A DNA stretch of 64,000 nt from Rhizophagus irregularis. Its lineage: Eukaryota > Glomeromycota > Glomeromycetes > Glomerales > Glomeraceae. Below the pieces are notes generated by a model. It made no database searches and was not told the origin of the DNA. It saw only the letters and a list, made by a program, of their open reading frames with translations. Where the stretch lies: NCBI RefSeq assembly GCF_026210795.1, contig NC_089438.1:558001-622000 (forward strand). Reading direction: 5' to 3'. Below, piece after piece: positions 2,161 to 22,695 of the stretch; position 1 is the stretch's first letter; each line of letters begins with the position of its first letter. A program made the translations under genes and the position numbers.

Positions 2161-3847
2161 ATTATGGAATATTACACAGTTTTATTACGTGATTTAGGTC
2201 GTGATCCACCTCGGATGAGCCGAAATCACCTAGTGAATTTATTAATTGTGGGCGCAGTATAATATTTAAATTAGGTATATGAAATTTTTGAGGCGTTTAA
2301 AATATTATTACTATATTTGAATATCAATAGAATTATAATTTTATTTATGAATTATTTGGGGCTGTTTATCCCGTTAATTATGGTTATTAATCAACATTTA
2401 CTTTCTTTTTAAAATATTCGATTCTTTTTACCTTTTTCTTATGATGAAAAAGTGCCATATTAATTATTTTGATTGATGGTTTTTAATGGAATTACTAAAT
2501 AGGGGAGACTATCGAATCTTAGTTTTTTTTTGAATTTGAGTTATGGGGAAAATAAATTAGAAATATTTCGTTAAAACTTTTGTTATATGTATTGATTTAT
2601 TTTATTATGGAACTCAGGATATATTAATATTTTATTGAATTTAATAAAGGATTATTTTGTAGCTTAAAATGGCAACGTCATTAATTGACGGACTTAAGTA
2701 CTACGGTAGCGGCAAACTTTAGGTTCCGTAAATACTTTTTAGCCAGCTTATATATTAGATTTATATAAATACTTAAAAGACCCATTTTACCGTTTAAACC
2801 ATCAAAGATATATTTTATTTATGCGATTTCGTGATATTTTAATTACATACTTATGTATACATGTCCATACTCCATACTAGATTGACTTTACAACAAAAAT
2901 CTACCATCCAAATATCAACAGTAATGGAATCGTATGTGAACACTAGCGCTTACCATTTCAAAAAGTAAAATTTCAAAAATAATTTTGTTATGTAATTCGT
3001 TACAATTTTCTATGCAAAAACTTGTTTATTTACGAATGATACAGACCAGGTACAGTATATATTGTTAGCGATAGTATGCTTTTGGATGATAAATTTCTGA
3101 CGATCATCTTCCAAATTTATTCACTTTTTCGCTTAATTTGTAGTTTGTCATACGATCTACATGCATTTTTTCATAATTTCGGAAATGCTCAATGTGAACT
3201 TTTTTGATTCAATTTTATATAGCTATATATATTGCTAATTGCAATAGCTATATAGCTATAGACGTTGTTATTGCAATATTGCTTCTTTGATATCATTAGA
3301 ATAAAATCACAAAATATTCATTTTTGTGCCACTTTCGCTACATATTAACTTGAGGCATCAAGCAATAAGTTTTATATTTGTATTTGATTTTGTTGATCTT
3401 TATTGATTTTCAACAAAAATAGATTCAAATATATTTCTTGTTCGTTAAAAAAATTGAAACGTGTAGATGATCATGTAGATCTTGTGATAATCAAAATAAA
3501 AAAGTGTTAGACGAAATTTTTTTTCAAAAATTTTTCTTTTTTTATAAATTTTTTTACATTTTTTTCTATTTGTAAGATTAAATATTTGGATATTACATAA
3601 TCACTAATTAAATTTATAAGTGTATTTAAGTGTATTTCTTTTAGAAAATAATGTGATATTTCACAAAAAATATTTTTTCTTACTATTTTTATTTTTAAAC
3701 TACTTGAATTTATAATTAATGAAAAAATTAATTAAAAATTTATGTCAGGTCATTTTCAAATTTTTATCATCTCAGTTCTTAATTTTTATATTACATTTAT
3801 TTTTTATATAAAATTTTTTTAAATTAAACTTCTTTTTCCAAATATAC

Positions 3848-4800
3848 TATAATCTCCACTTTGGCCAAATGAAATCAACTTCATTTATTAATTAAAAGTT
3901 GTTCAGGCATGTTGAAACCACTTGAATATTAATTTTCATGAATATAGGTATAGTGCTTAGAGAAAATTGCATTTCTTGATGATATTAACTCTCTTTTCTG
4001 TTTTTTAATTTAGAACGTAATATTTCCACTTTAGACAAATGAAATCAACTTTATTTATTAATTGAAAGTTGTTCAGGCAGGTTGAAACCATTTGAATATT
4101 AATTTTCATGAATGTAGATGTAGTGCTTAGAGAAAATTGCATTTTTCTTGATGATATTAACTCTCTTTTTTGTGTTTTAATTTATAGCGTAATATTTCCA
4201 CTCTAGACAAATGAAATCAACTTTATTTATTAATTGAAAGTTGTTCAGGCAGGTTGAAACAACTTGAATATTAATTTTCATGAATGTAGGTGTAGTGCTT
4301 AGAGAAAATTGCATTTTTCTTGATGATATTAACTCTCTTTTCTGTTTTTTAATTTAGAGCGTAATATTTCCACTTTAGACAAATGAAATCAACTTTATTT
4401 ATTAATTGAAAGTTGTTCAGGCAGGTTGAAACCACTTGAATATTAATTTTCATGAATGTAGGTGTAGTGCTCAGAGAAAATTGCATTTTTCTTGATGATA
4501 TTAACTCTCTTTTTTGTGTTTTAATTTAGAGCGTAATATTTCCACTTTGGGCAAATGAAATCAACTTTATTTATTAATTGAAAGTTGTTCAGGCATGTTG
4601 AAACCACTTGAATATTAATTTTCATGAATATAGGTATAGTGCTTAGAGAAAATTGCATTTCTTGATGATATTAACTCTCTTTTCTGTTTTTTAATTTAGA
4701 ACGTAATATTTCCACTTTAGACAAATGAAATCAACTTTATTTATTAATTGAAAGTTGTTCAGGCAAGTTGAAACTACTTGAATATTAGTTTTCATAAGAT
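3848..4800. repeat. tandem repeat, about 171-bp unit, 5.6 copies
   Basis: A unit of about 171 bp recurs head to tail. The anchor CCACTTTAGACAAATGAAAT (or close variants) appears near 3855, 4026, 4199, 4371, 4542 and 4712. Copies share the blocks GAAAGTTGTTCAGGCAGGTT and GAGAAAATTGCATTTTTCTT and differ by scattered substitutions. The last copy breaks off near 4800. There is no long reading frame. It lies inside the remains of an E2 gene. Confidence 0.9.
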
Positions 4801-15391: not shown

Positions 15392-18300
15392 CTAAATTTT
15401 TAGTTCTTTTTTTTCTTGGTCTAATTCTAATTTCAATTCATTCAAATTTTTTCTCAATGAATTTATATCTTCTGCCATCATATTAGAATTTAATTGAATT
15501 CTGGTTCCTTCCTGAGAATTAGTAGCAAATTTAAAAATTTTGTATTTATCAAGATTAAAAGAATTCAGCTTAAGAATATTTTCAATCATAAGGCAAACTT
15601 CCAACTTTTTATTTTCTTGAACAATTTTCTTTAAGGAATAATAATTTTTGTTCAACTCTAATAATCCATCATTATATTTTACAAGAATACTTTGAAATTC
15701 TTTAGTATATTTGTCAGTCAATTTAGAGGTTTTCATATCTCTGATAGAACCAATAATATTTCTTTCCTTATTAATAGAACTTTCTAAATGATTACAGCAA
15801 TTTTGTAGTTTTTTAATGGCTTCTTCTCGTAAAGTTAGGAAATCACCTTTAACTTTCAGAAAATTATTGACTTGATTGAGAACCTGTTTTTTTCTATTGG
15901 CATTATAAGAAGCTGAAGTTCTTGATAATTCTTGTTGAAGTTCATCCATCTCTTTAAGTTTAGCTTCTTTTTCTTTATGAACTTCCTCAGTATTTTTTCC
16001 ACTAGTTAATTTATTTAATGATTCTTTTTCAATTTCTTTTTTTTTATCTTGTAACTTTTTAATACGCTCTTGATCAAGGTTAATCAGTCTTTGTTCCAAT
16101 TCATTTATTTTATCTTCTTTAATCTGTAAAGCTTGAGTTAATTGCATTTTGATTTGTTCTTCAATGATTAATTTTTGTTCCAATTGAGCAATTTCCTTTT
16201 CTAACTTGGCTTTCAATTCAGTAGTAAGCTTTTGATCTTGTAAAAGATCACTCACCATATTTTGCAACTTGATTCTTTCTTGTTTTGTTTGTTTATAATT
16301 AACTTGAAACTGATTTAAACTATTTTCTAATTGCTTTTTTTGTTCAATTAAACTTTCTTTGTGAGATTTTGATTCTTGAATATTAGCTTCTATTTGAGCT
16401 AATTTTTCTTGCAATTTAGTTTCATCTTGCTTTAACTGGCTGATTTGGCCTTGAACTTGCTGGTTAATGAGTTCATTTTGTTCTAACTGTTCAGTTAAAT
16501 TGATTAAATTGCCAGCTAAGTTTTGCTTTTCATTTTGCATGTCAATAATTTGGGTTTGTAAAATATTTTCTTTTTCTGCAAATTTTTTAATCTGTTTAGC
16601 TAAATTAAGTCTCAGATTTTGATTATTATTTTGTTCAAATGTAAAATTCCTTTGTTGTAAATCAAATAATTCATTCTTTAACTTAAAATTTTCTTCTTCT
16701 GTTTGAATTAATTGTTTTTTAAATTGAGAATTTCTTTGTTGTAAATTAATTAACTCATTTTGAGAACTTTGATAATAAGTTTCAGCAATTTTTTCTAATT
16801 TAAAATTTTCTTCTTCTATTTGAATTAATTGATTTTTAAATTGATTTTGCTGAGATTTTAATTCTTGAATAATGGTTTCTGTTTGGACTAATTTATCTTG
16901 CAGAATATTTTTTTCTTGATTTAACTGACTGTTTTGTTTTAACTGTTCAGTCAACTTGCCATCTAAAGCTTGTTTTTCACTTTTCAGGTTTGTAATTTGG
17001 ATTTGTAAAGTACTTTCTTTTTTTGCCAATTCTTCATTTTGTAAAGGTGAGTTTTGTTGTAAATTAACTAATTCCATTTGAATATTTTGTAATTCGTTTT
17101 GAGAACTTTGATATTTTTGTTTTGGTTCAAGAAATCCTTGAGAACCTTCTAGAATTAGAGTTTCATTTAATTCTTTACTAGTAAAATCAAGTAAATGACT
17201 TGTATAGCATGCTTTTGGATGAGATTCTACAACAATAAGGTTATTGTTCTCAATTGGTGCATTTATAAATTCCATAATATTGCTTTTTAATTCTTCATTA
17301 ATATCTTCAATTTTCTTATCCCGAGGATAAAAAATCCAATTTTTAATAATATCTAAAACTTCTTTAGAAGATGGTCTTTTTAATGGATCTTCATCCCAGC
17401 ATTTTTTCATTAAATCTACATAAAATTGTGGAGTATTTTCAATAATTTTAGGACGTTCACCTTTACAAATACTTAAAGCAAGTTGAAGATCATGTGCTTT
17501 ATCATTAAATGGTGATATTTTAGATGTAAATTCCCACATAATTATAGAAAAACTATATATATCACTAGCTTGAGTGTAAGGTTGACCTCTTAAAATTTCA
17601 GGTGCTATGAATGGTAGAACTCCATAGATATCATTTTCTTTTAAAAAAGATTTTGCAAGTTGATATAATCCTAAATAATCACTAATAAAAATCCCATATA
17701 TATTTCCTTCATATTCGTTACATAAAATATTACCATTATGAATGTTATAATGAATAAGATCTTTTTCATGAATAATATAAAGACCCTTAATAATTTGATA
17801 TAAACAAAATAATTTTTGTTTCCAATTTTTTGTTATTTCTGTTAAACATCTTTTTAAACTATTCTTATTTGTATACTCCATTATTAATACATAATTCAAA
17901 GTGTCTGGATCCTTTGTAAATCCATATATTCTAATAATTTCATTTGAATCAATAATTTTCCACTATAAAAAATAATATTTATTAGCAAATTAGTATAAAT
18001 AAATTATAATATTAAAAAAAAGATAATATTTAATCATACTTCATTTAAAAATTCATTTAAACTTTCATCTGAATTATTAAGATAATCAAAATATTTAAAA
18101 ATTACTTCAATATTACTAAATTTAGCTTTATATATAGTACCAAATCCTCCTTTATCAAGATATTCAATATTTTCAAATTTATCATAAGGAATCCATTTTA
18201 AATCATTTTTGGAAATCAATTGATCCACAATTTTACTTCCACTAGTACCAAATCTTTAAATATAAAATGAAGTTGTATTAAAAATTAAAATTTAAAATAA

Positions 18301-21300
18301 AAAATTTACAATTAAAATTTAAATATTAAACAATATTTATTATACTTACTCTAAATAAAATTATAAAAATTTAATATAATAAATAAATAATTAATTTAAA
18401 TTTTAAATAAATAGTATATAATAACTTATAATTTACCAACTAAAAAAATTTAATTATTATGAGTAAATATTATATAATTATAATAAATTAAATACAAAAA
18501 ATATAAGATTATTATAATGTTTTTTACTTCAAATCACCGGGGGTGATCATCACCGTTGGCCAGAATTAACAAATTTTACTGGCACTATTTTTTTAATGCT
18601 GGTCGATCGTCATAATTTCAGTCATCGGTGATCATCACCCCCGGTGATAGTTAGAAAAATTCTATTATAATTAAAAAATGCAAAACTTACAGGCTAAAAT
18701 ATTTTAAATAATTTTTTAAATAAATAATTTAGTTAGTTTAAATTATATGTAAATATTTATAATAAGGCAATTTCTATTTGTACACGGGGTGTTTAAACAC
18801 GGGTCATATTAGTAAATTAAAAACGGCATTCAAAACCTTCTTTAATGCCTTAAGTAAACTTGCAGAGCAGGTGAAAATACATATATTTATCTGTAATATA
18901 ATAAGAATATAAAGTAAAAGAGTATAATGTCGGTAGCATTCAATTTCAAATTAAAACACAAAAAATTAGTCTATTAAAAATTATATTTATATGACCCGTG
19001 TACAAACACCCCGTGTAAACTTAGAAATTTTCTTTTCTTATAATAAATATAATAGAATTACTTACGTTCTAAAATATTTGAATAATTTTTTAAATAAAGA
19101 GTTTAGTTAGTTTAAATTTTATATGTAAATATTAATAGAATTACTTACGATCTAAAATATTTGAATAATTTTTTAAATAAAGAATTTAGTTAGTTTAAAT
19201 TTTATATGTAAATATTATATAAATATAATAGAATTACTTACGTTCTAAAATATTTGAATAATTTTTTAAATAAGGAAATTAGTTAGTTTAAATTATATGT
19301 AAATAATATATAAATATAATAGAATTAAATATAACTTATAACTTACTAACTAACGAAATTACAAAATAATTTTTTAAATAAAGAATTTAGTTAGTTTAAA
19401 TTTTATATGTAAATATTATATAAATATAATAGAATTACTTACAATCTAAAATATTTGAATAATTTTTTAAATAAAGAATTTAGTTAGTTTAAATTATATG
19501 TAAATAATATATAAATATAATAGAATTAAATATAACTTATAACTTACTAACTAACGAAATTACAAAATAATTTTTTAAATAAAGAATTTAGTTAGTTTAA
19601 ATTTTATATGTAAATATTATATAAATAAATAAATAACATACTCCCTATATTATTAAATAAATAATTTTTTAAATAAAGAATTTAGTTAGTTTAAATTATA
19701 TATAAATATTATATAAATATAATAGAATTACTTACGTTCTAAAATATTTTTTTTAAATAAAGAATTTAGTTAGTTTAAATTATATGTAAATATTATATAA
19801 ATATAATAGAATTACTTACGTTCTAAAATATTTGAATAATTTTTTAAATAAAGAATTTAGTTAGTTTAAATTATATATAAATATTATATAAATATAATAG
19901 AATTACTTACGTTCTAAAATATTTGAATAATTTTTTAAATAAAGAATTTAGTTAGTTTAAATTATATGTAAATATTGTATAAATATAATAGAATTACTTA
20001 CTATCTAAAATATTTGAATAATTTTTTAAATAAAGAATTTAGTTAGTTTAAATAAATAAATAAATAATTTTTTAAATAAAGAATTTAGTTAGTTTAAATT
20101 ATATATAAATATTATATAAATATAATAGAATTACTTACGTTCTAAAATATTTGAATAATTTTTTAAATAAAGAATTTAGTTAGTTTAAATTATATGTAAA
20201 TATTGTATAAATATAATAGAATTACTTACTATCTAAAATATTTGAATAATTTTTTAAATAAAGAATTTAGTTAGTTTAAATAAATAAATAAATAATTTTT
20301 TAAATAAAGAATTTAGTTAGTTTAAATTATATATAAATATTATATAAATATAATAGAATTACTTACGTTCTAAAATATTTGAATAATTTTTTAAATAAAG
20401 AATTTAGTTAGTTTAAATTATATATAAATATTGTATAAATATAATAAATTACTTACGAACTAAAATATTTGAATAATTTTTTAAATAAAGAATTTAGTTA
20501 GTTTAAATTATATGTAAATATTATATAAATATAATAGAATTACTTACGTTCTAAAATATTTGAATAATTTTTTAAATGAAGAATTTAGTTAGTTTAAATT
20601 ATATGTAAATATTGTATAAATATAATAGAATTACTTACTATCTAAAATATTTGAATAATTTTTTAAATAAAGAATTTAGTTAGTTTAAATTATATGTAAA
20701 TATTATATAAATAAATAAATAACATACTCCCTATATTATTAAACAAATAATTTTTTAAATAAAGAATTTAGTTAGTTTAAATTATATATAAATATTATAT
20801 AAATATAATAGAATTACTTACATTCTAAAATATTTGAATAATTTTTTAAATAAAGAATTTAGTTAGTTTAAATAAATAAATAAATAATTTTTTAAATAAA
20901 GAATTTAGTTAGTTTAAATTATATATAAATATTGTATAAATATAATAAATTACTTACGAACTAAAATATTTGAATAATTTTTTAAATAAAGAATTTAGTT
21001 AGTTTAAATTATATGTAAATATTATATAAATATAATAGAATTACTTACGTTCTAAAATATTTGAATAATTTTTTAAATAAAGAATTTAGTTAGTTTAAAT
21101 TATATGTAAATATTGTATAAATATAATAGAATTACTTACTATCTAAAATATTTGAATAATTTTTTAAATAATGAATTTAGTTAGTTTAAATAATATATAA
21201 ATATAATAGAATTAAATATAACTTATAACTTACTAACTAACGAAATTACAAAAATAATTTTTTAAATAAAGAATTTAGTTAGTTTAAATTATATGTAAAT

Positions 21301-22695
21301 ATTGTATAAATATAATAGAATTACTTACTATCTAAAATATTTGAATAATTTTTTAAATAAAGAATTTAGTTAGTTTAAATAAATAAATAAATAATTTTTT
21401 AAATAAAGAATTTAGTTAGTTTAAATTATATATAAATATTATATAAATATAATAGAATTACTTACGTTCTAAAATATTTGAATAATTTTTTAAATAAAGA
21501 ATTTAGTTAGTTTAAATTATATGTAAATATTATATAAATATAATAGAATTACTTACGTTCTAAAATATTTGAATAATTTTTTAAATAAAGAATTTAGTTA
21601 GTTTAAATTATATATAAATATTGTATAAATATAATAAATTACTTACGAACTAAAATATTTGAATAATTTTTTAAATAAAGAATTTGGTTAGTTTAAATTA
21701 TATGTAAATATTATATAAATATAATAGAATTACTTACGTTCTAAAATATTTGAATAATTTTTTAAATAAAGAATTTAGTTAGTTTAAATTATATGTAAAT
21801 ATTATATAAATATAATAGAATTACTTACGTTCTAAAATATTTGAATAATTTTTTAAATAAAGAATTTAGTTAGTTTAAATTATATATAAATATTATATAA
21901 ATATAATAGAATTAAATAAATAACTTATAACTTACCAACTAAAAGAAATTACATGAATAAAGAATTTTAGTTAGTTTAAATTATATGTGAATATCATATA
22001 AATATAATAAATTACTTACGATCTAAAATATTTGCATAATTTGAATAAAGAATTTAGTTAGTTTAAATTATATGTAAATATTATATAAATAAAACAAATA
22101 ACTTACACCCTGTAGCATTATTAATTAATAATAATTATAAAGTGAAGTAATTATAATCAGTTAAATAAAATATTATAATTGTATATAAAAATTAAGTATA
22201 TGCAGTAACTTACAATCTAATTATTTAAATAAATAATATTATTAGTTTAAATTATATATAAATACTTTTAAATTAATAATAAAAATTAAATACTTACTTT
22301 CTGTTATATTAATTGAAAATTTAGTTATTTAAAATATTATGTAAAATACAATAAAAAAAAATAGCTATTAACTTACCAACTATAATAATATTAATAATAA
22401 AATAAATTATTTGGTATTTTGGTTATATAAAATAATAGAAGTAAGTAATTTAATTATCATTCCGATTATAAGATAACCTATTACTTACGAGCTAATATAG
22501 TGAAATAATTTTTAGAAATAGTTCAAAAATTTAAATATAATTTACAAGCAGTTAAATAATTTTCTTACCTTCATCTTTCTCAGTTTTTGAAACTAGTTTC
22601 ATTATATTGCAAATTTATTTTAGAGCAATTTCAATTTGTATTAGATATCTATATTCATGTTATATGCTTTTACCTTTATCGTTACTTTGACCCAT
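15392..22695 (-). CDS. kinase-like/coiled-coil protein with 3-nt exon array (981 residues as modelled)
   Basis: Exons in order: 22695-22674 (starting MGQSNDK), 22592-22569, then 38 exons of 3 nt (22491 down to 18437), one of 1 nt at 18350, then 18253-18040 and 17962-15392. All borders are AG/GT, the joined length is 2946 nt and no stop occurs. Residues 16-54 come from the microexons and are rich in Gln, Leu, His, Lys and Asn. The kinase-like domain spans about 75-340: Gly loop LDKGGFGTIYKA, candidate lysine in VIFKYF, APE motif FIAPEILRG. The catalytic HRD reads HYN (residue 198), and the DFG region reads SDYLGL with an extra residue, so it is probably a pseudokinase. The family motif HPKACYTSHLLDF follows near residue 370. 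A long Gln/Glu/Lys coiled coil fills the rest. The two 3' exons are certain. The 5' part is inferred from splice signals, phase and similarity and needs transcript data. Without it, the kinase exon has no ATG start. Confidence 0.75.
18534..18647. mobile_element. MITE with TCACCGGGGGTGATCATC ends, inside an intron
   Basis: About 114 bp with inverted ends TCACCGGGGGTGATCATCAC and the complement. A diverged second copy lies at 56598-56703 in the opposite orientation. Similarity continues a few bases into the flanks (ACTTCAAA, TAGTTAGAAA), so the true element may be slightly longer. It sits in the intron between the microexons at 18691 and 18437. Confidence 0.75.
18769..19029. mobile_element. MITE with TACACGGGGTGTTT ends, inside an intron
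   Basis: Inverted ends: left AATTTCTATTTGTACACGGG, continuing GTGTTTAAACACGGGTCATA; right is the complement (ATGACCCGTGTACAAACACC...). About 260 bp. It lies in the intron between the microexons at 19066 and 18691, making that intron longer than the others without touching its splice sites. Confidence 0.7.

Follow-up and report, generated by a model that had tools for sequence, protein, structure and literature searches.

The window analysed here is a 64,000-nucleotide stretch of the genome of Rhizophagus irregularis, an arbuscular mycorrhizal symbiotic soil fungus of ecological importance (contig NC_089438.1, positions 558,001 to 622,000). A kinase gene on its minus strand very probably has an N-terminal segment encoded by 38 consecutive single-codon exons and one single-nucleotide exon. 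Judged by its predicted exon structure, it is one member of a family of R. irregularis kinase genes with arrays of one-codon exons. An earlier note on this DNA had described the array as a feature of one gene; this holds for the window gene, but the array is not a single case, since a family of such genes exists. The predicted exons are as follows (positions are those of the window):

22674..22695, minus strand: exon 1, 22 nt, M G Q S N D K plus one nucleotide, ending in phase 1
22569..22592, minus strand: exon 2, 24 nt, VSKTEKDE, phase 1 to 1
22107..22491, minus strand: first five single-codon exons, CTC (22491), TTG (22379), AAA (22300), ATT (22216) and GGT (22109)
19066..22022, minus strand: 31 more single-codon exons of 3 nt each, differing between loci; exons 6-21 of the array start at 22022, 21938, 21831, 21740, 21649, 21559, 21468, 21331, 21236, 21142, 21051, 20960, 20824, 20730, 20641 and 20550, and exons 22-36 at 20459, 20369, 20232, 20141, 20004, 19913, 19822, 19738, 19644, 19550, 19445, 19349, 19244, 19151 and 19068
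18691..18693, minus strand: single-codon exon CCT (P of PFE)
18437..18439, minus strand: last single-codon exon TTG, donor GTAAAT
18350..18350, minus strand: one-nucleotide exon A, in the context TTTAG-A-GTAAGT
18040..18253, minus strand: kinase exon 1, FGTSGSKIVDQL...GGFGTIYKA, its start without ATG
15392..17962, minus strand: last exon with the remaining kinase domain and a long tail, coiled-coil-like by eye; stop codon at 15394-15392

All 38 sites proposed in the earlier note (AG, three bases, GT) were recovered on the minus strand, from 22491-22489 to 18439-18437, between the two short 5' exons and the kinase exon. The donors, said to be GTAAG in nearly all and GTAAAT or GTATGT in three, are GTAAGT at 35 of the 38 sites, GTATGT at 20730 and 19644 and GTAAAT at 18439. 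Re-reading in phase 1 gives the same 38 codons with zero stops. The introns between successive triplets, put at mostly 76-140 nt, measure 76-134 nt with two exceptions of 372 and 251 nt, both of which hold inverted-repeat insertions. The distance of about 115 nt predicted between exon 2 and the kinase exon in a spliced product fits 38 x 3 + 1, with the refinement that the last site is read as a one-nucleotide exon. The predicted coding sequence is 2946 nt long including the stop, of which the array exons make up 114 nt, and it yields a 981-residue open reading frame without internal stop once the one-nucleotide exon is counted. Every array exon is symmetric, its length being a multiple of three with the same phase on both sides.

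The spacing of acceptor and donor is specific to this region and this strand. Between 18000 and 22800, [TC]AG lies exactly 3 nt upstream of 37 of the 38 minus-strand GTA[AT]GT donors and 1 nt upstream of the other; in the rest of the window the 3-nt spacing is found at 1 of 32 donors on the plus strand and 0 of 27 on the minus strand. In the stretches upstream of 21 close kinases, window included, [TC]AG stands exactly 3 nt before 594 of the 636 GTAAGT donors and 1 nt before 20, while any other distance from 0 to 40 nt accounts for 4 at most. The antisense strand of the same stretches has 29 GTAAGT donors, one with the acceptor at 3 nt and six at 2 nt.

Related loci were picked by hand from ranked lists within this one genome. 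A search with the window's N-terminal peptide scored at least 150 places of 3166 candidates, a lower bound for the places of the family's first kinase exon in the genome, and a search with a distant kinase exon scored at least 150 of 3566. The sample of 45 loci comprises the window, the 20 best-ranked places, 8 lower ones with long open frames or long matches and 16 from further down the list; two stretches of 251 and 201 bases (L050, L054) are excluded from every count. Outside the close set mostly 2.5-3 kb of upstream DNA was taken, so that most arrays there are cut, and for seven of the last 16 loci (L045, L046, L047, L052, L053, L055, L057) the DNA taken stops where the kinase exon begins, leaving the array visible and the kinase junction out of view. 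Arrays are present in 45 of the 45 related kinase loci; the number of sites varies between 6, where the DNA taken was limited to 2.5 kb, and 115.

If the triplets are spliced in order in phase 1, stops should be avoided at the junctions of true neighbours, in 5'-to-3' order only. The last base of each triplet was therefore joined to the first two bases of the next, which makes the phase-1 codon, and the order of triplets was shuffled within runs. At sites of the strict pattern, 968 neighbour pairs contain one phase-1 stop against 38.8 (s.d. 4.5) expected, and none of 2000 shuffles reached so low a number; the same pairs hold 148 stops in phase 2. With the lenient pattern, 1055 pairs from the 45 loci likewise contain one phase-1 stop (40.9 expected from shuffled order) and 163 in phase 2. 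Counting each distinct pair once leaves 1 stop in 395 against 28 expected. The bases AA, AG or GA open the next triplet after 1 of 268 triplets ending in T and after 234 of 787 others (Fisher p 3e-33). Depletion is confined to immediate neighbours: pairs two steps apart give 34 stops in 925, against 35.8 expected, and lags 3 to 7 show none either (z from -0.8 to 2.8). Reading the triplet pairs in reverse order produces 58 stops. The avoidance is seen both in close loci (1 in 720 pairs, 29.4 expected) and in distant ones (0 in 335, 11.8 expected); the window alone, with 0 stops in 35 pairs against 1.6 expected, has too few pairs for a test. An apparent stop in the window arises with the lenient pattern, which omits the last triplet with its GTAAAT donor, and disappears when all 38 are joined.

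Avoidance that depends on order, phase and neighbourhood points to translation of the complete, ordered set of triplets, and no feature of DNA repeats known to us would produce it between neighbours only and in one direction only. The pooled result thus supports the earlier proposal that the single-codon exons are joined in phase 1; on the sequence evidence it is most likely that splicing joins the triplets in order and normally includes every one, and that they are translated.

The one-nucleotide exon follows from the same frame, since the array ends in phase 1 and the kinase is read in phase 2. At the window site 18350, including three bases or none puts stops into the kinase, and including the single A leaves it open. 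All 21 close loci have a one-nucleotide site after the last triplet and before the kinase (L028 has a variant, G with the donor GTAAAT), and so do 7 of the distant loci. The strict form, [TC]AG-N-GTA[AT]GT, is found once per locus in 42 of the 45. With this exon the kinase part is free of stops in 20 of 21 close loci and without it in 0 of 21, the window being scored with all 38 triplets. The 5' exons agree with the frame: exon 1, located by script in 17 of the 21 close loci, is 22, 31 or 19 nt long and always 1 modulo 3, and exon 2 is 24 nt in the 15 of 21 where it was located. In L013 exon 1 is longer by 9 nt (MAQSTQSNNE) through an in-frame, duplication-like insertion, which is in line with coding constraint on the leader.

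Several observations weigh against this architecture. Phase 0, in which each triplet is itself a codon, is nearly free of stops too (2 in the same 968 strict pairs), and shuffling of order cannot probe that phase; the reading frame rests on the junction test, on exons 1 and 2 and on the one-nucleotide exon. A phase-1 stop, ATT-AGA, does occur between neighbours in L025, and stops appear on joining across gaps where a cassette has decayed or was missed, in L014, L030, L031 (two) and L047. L015, in which exon 2 was not located, has TTT as its last triplet and shows a stop where the array joins the kinase. The strict one-nucleotide site is missing in 3 of the 45 loci, namely L028, with its variant, and L056 and L058, with none. 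A branch-like CTAAY motif is missing in 257 of 1055 introns. The arrays also share common ancestry, so that pairs are not fully independent, a point answered in part by the distinct-pair, lag and direction controls. L015 and L025 may be decaying copies.

Paralogues with similar first codons and the one-nucleotide exon recur on many contigs. The largest array, with 115 sites, lies in a joined 12-kb stretch (L039 and L017; G000:C22:2757600-2770000); it contains repeated multi-cassette blocks (TTG/AAC/GAA/GGA), which suggests that it grew by blocks. Across the genome the pattern TTAGNNNGTAAGT occurs 2114 times and 515 times when read backwards; a version with four N occurs 292 times (817 backwards). 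Among the first 100 places listed, 87 are on contig C1, 79 of them in five clusters and 8 as scattered singles, and each of the five clusters lies directly upstream of a kinase place from the N-terminal peptide search. The strict form makes up 596 of the 1218 sites in the 45 loci, so that simple arithmetic (an excess of about 1,600-1,820, multiplied by 1218/596) gives a rough total of 3,000-4,000 single-codon exons. Eight other kinases, chosen from a general PF07714 search as a control, have zero strict 3-nt sites in 2.5-2.6 kb of upstream DNA (8 of 8). A related kinase with a plain, contiguous N-terminal exon, the ancestral form, was not found among the eight loci with long frames or long matches, all of which also bear arrays. 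Relatives outside the R. irregularis genome were not confirmed in one genome-contig and one viral-contig scan, which covered no other Glomeromycotina genome.

Splicing of such arrays could proceed by ordinary steps. The median array intron is about 95 nt, and the branch-like motif reported earlier, counted as CTAAY over the 45-locus set only, is present in 798 of 1055 introns; its commonest position is 38-43 nt upstream of the intron end. Under intron definition with sequential removal, short introns of this kind would be recognised singly and removed one after another, each step adding one codon to the mRNA, with every array exon normally included. Once the preceding intron is gone, the next GTAAGT would adjoin the growing exon; with sequential removal, an acceptor and a donor 3 nt apart need not be bound simultaneously.

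The ends of the array are conserved and its middle is variable. The first five triplets, CTC, TTG, AAA, ATT and GGT, are kept in 13, 14, 14, 16 and 14 of the 18 leader-bearing loci (window included; three leaderless loci are left out and some slots are mis-assigned), and with the adjoining bases they encode ALENW in the window. The flanks of these five cassettes differ from those of the window by 15-33% on average, and the mean triplet difference is below the flank difference in four of the five slots. At the other end, 15 of 20 close paralogues have TTG as their final strict triplet. Predicted peptides with a leader mostly start with ALENW or a close variant, and many, including those of distant loci, end with PF or SF; between these ends they are diverse and may be rich in Q/L/E, in W/N/R or in D/Y. 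The earlier statement that the array is not only a copy of one satellite unit stands for its ends, but its middle holds many near-copies within and between loci.

Within these near-copies the codons diverge most. Near-identical units of one locus differ at 16.5% of triplet sites and at 0.3-6.7% (mean 2.3%) of sites in 25 three-base windows of the flanks, about a seven-fold excess per site; the pairs compared are not independent and, under the strictest flank cut-off, come down to 42 distinct combinations of locus and triplet. The GC content is 35.5% in the triplets against 9.0% in the flanks. A neighbour in another locus (at most 12 differences in 54 flank positions) exists for 1032 units, and the nearest one differs at a median of 3 positions; the triplet is the same in 377 of these (36.5%, against 7.3% expected by composition). 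Such likeness between loci implies that different chromosomes share cassettes or exchange them. Some arrays have gaps of about 180-200 nt, in part with a weak site halfway, which look like decayed cassettes.

The arrays could evolve by unequal exchange and conversion of cassettes, each composed of half an intron, a codon and half an intron. Since a cassette contributes 3 nt in phase 1 to 1, its gain, loss or swap keeps the frame, and the peptide between ALENW and the PFE-kinase part can therefore change rapidly in length and sequence. The excess divergence of codons together with the conserved first codons fits a hypervariable peptide that evolves as one-codon cassettes are gained, lost and exchanged. 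Two points qualify this. The fifth conserved slot has a mean triplet difference of 0.196 against 0.155 in its flanks (some units being mis-assigned), and the codon variability may stem from selection, from local mutation or from cassette exchange.

What the variability serves is a matter for more tentative statements. The arrays may constitute a dedicated system of protein diversification at codon resolution, in which intron-flanked one-codon cassettes are shuffled and pass between loci of different chromosomes, with selection diversifying them. The product would be a large repertoire (perhaps more than 100) of hypervariable kinase N-termini acting as recognition surfaces, possibly in self/non-self or partner recognition of this coenocytic symbiont. 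This proposal is plausible rather than probable. The most speculative element of the main account is that the hypervariable peptide would set the binding specificity of these kinases and pseudokinases. A reading that might equally hold, and is likewise short of probable, is constructive neutral evolution, in which the exons would be genuine and translated but unequal crossing-over would have enlarged the arrays to no advantage, the peptide being no more than a tolerated linker. The spread of site numbers from 6 (in a cut stretch) to 115, the very diverse composition and the harmlessness of cassette loss to the frame agree with neutral growth. Against it stand the seven-fold excess of triplet divergence over the adjoining intron, which simple drift with homogenisation would not obviously produce, and the presence of the architecture in every locus of the sample.

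In a further alternative the exons would be used combinatorially, with free skipping giving many peptide isoforms per gene, as proposed for schistosome micro-exon genes. Any array exon, having 3 nt in phase 1, could be skipped without loss of frame. Frequent skipping would, however, expose the junctions between every first and third triplet to selection, and these carry stops at the shuffled rate. The lack of stop avoidance at lag 2 makes single-exon skipping unlikely as a major, selected product, though rare skipping may occur; free combinatorial splicing is an improbable description of the arrays.

Translation of the triplets would be excluded altogether if the array were an intronic satellite, i.e., a splice-like unit multiplied by repeat growth and removed as one large intron, or not transcribed, so that the triplets are absent from mRNA. 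The window array does repeat in tandem, at periods near 91 and 182 bp, and many units are near-identical within and between loci. A satellite has, however, no evident reason to avoid T-AA, T-AG and T-GA between successive units, about 95 bp from one another, yet not in the reverse direction or at longer lags, or to carry triplets that are GC-richer and more variable than their flanks, or a one-nucleotide exon placed where the frame demands it; this explanation is very unlikely. The least credible alternative is that the sites, which do resemble recursive ones in having an acceptor close to GTAAGT, are ratchet points that only remove a long intron stepwise and leave nothing in the mRNA, since the distance from [TC]AG to GTAAGT is three bases at the great majority of donors, the zero-length exon of a recursive site (AG-GT) occurs at 0 of 636, and the avoidance of stops indicates that the bases are read in mRNA.

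The array of single-codon exons is placed in front of a kinase domain. The predicted window protein matches PF00069 above the curated cut-off (E 3.3e-33, 115.6 bits, residues 81-329) and PF07714 with E 3.9e-33. Its catalytic loop reads HYNIHNGN. The aspartate of the HRD motif is required for kinase activity and not for the fold; all 10 close loci examined, the window among them, have lost it (HYN, HHN or HYS), which makes the window gene a likely pseudokinase, and it is kept in 6 of 6 distant array-bearing kinases. Besides its probable pseudokinase domain, the window protein would have a variable N-terminal segment and a tail that looks coiled-coil-like by eye. Visual inspection of the protein start, MAQSNDKVSKIEKDK, does not suggest a signal peptide. 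N-myristoylation, considered from the initial MGQ, was dropped, since 15 of the 17 located leaders begin with MAQ and 2 with MGQ.

Two long introns of the window array contain inverted-repeat insertions resembling miniature inverted-repeat transposable elements (MITEs):

18776..19020, minus strand, approximate limits: MITE-like insertion, placed between the AAC and CCT exons and fitting the 372-nt intron there
18532..18649, minus strand, approximate limits: second inverted-repeat insertion, placed between the CCT and TTG exons and fitting the 251-nt intron there

The two elements differ, their inverted ends being GTTTACACGGGGTG... and ATCACCGGGGGTGATGATCACC..., and their presence suggests that the array introns tolerate insertions. 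Elsewhere in the window, positions 3855-4795 hold a tandem array with a 172-bp unit (5.5 copies, 94% matches).

In the open part of the literature, preprints and subscription papers apart, neither an array of single-codon exons nor any work on microexons in R. irregularis was found, and the main text of the R. irregularis genome paper (PMC10234402) uses the word 'microexon' 0 times. Runs of up to about 100 three-base exons, as predicted from these loci, appear to go beyond any use of tiny exons found in that literature. If the arrays are spliced as proposed, they would represent an extreme form of split gene, with coding sequence divided down to single codons at up to 115 sites per locus. They would also test the lower limit of exon size, the handling of a repeated 3-nt acceptor-donor spacing by the spliceosome and its fidelity, and would show how a protein could evolve codon by codon without risk of frameshift. 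The arrays further suggest that many R. irregularis kinase N-termini may be wrong or missing in present annotations.

Several known systems share part of this architecture. In recursive splicing an acceptor and a strong donor lie very close together and an intron is removed stepwise. Adjacency of the two sites and stepwise removal are common to the arrays, with the difference that three nucleotides per step would stay in the mRNA here. The exons of the aphid bicycle and megacycle genes are reportedly longer than one codon. These genes, putative gall effectors, are described as having many very small internal exons of near-uniform phase 2, with more than 100 microexons in megacycle (PMC9168663). 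By this description, the R. irregularis genes similarly combine many small exons of uniform phase with a highly divergent family, and they differ in using phase 1 and in encoding kinases.

Exons of one or three nucleotides are known singly. A 1-nt exon is described in Arabidopsis APC11 (PMC4674806), in CYP621A of Fusarium, a fungus (PMC12940212), and in plant VPS55, where GTRAGT donors are conserved (PMC8831610); 3-nt exons are described in mouse Ncam and fly TnT (PMC8042270). All of them are single exons in otherwise ordinary genes, and adjacency of tiny exons was found, in the accessible parts of these sources, only for a 5-nt and a 12-nt exon of one rice gene (PMC8831610). In the micro-exon genes (MEGs) of schistosomes, about 80% of the coding region is made up of exons of 6-36 bp, and the products are almost always secreted or membrane-anchored, with variation by splicing proposed (PMC5825161). 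The R. irregularis arrays resemble them in short symmetric exons and in a dynamic, fast-evolving family, and differ from them in that each array exon is a single codon, the gene encodes a kinase and the pattern of stops favours constant inclusion.

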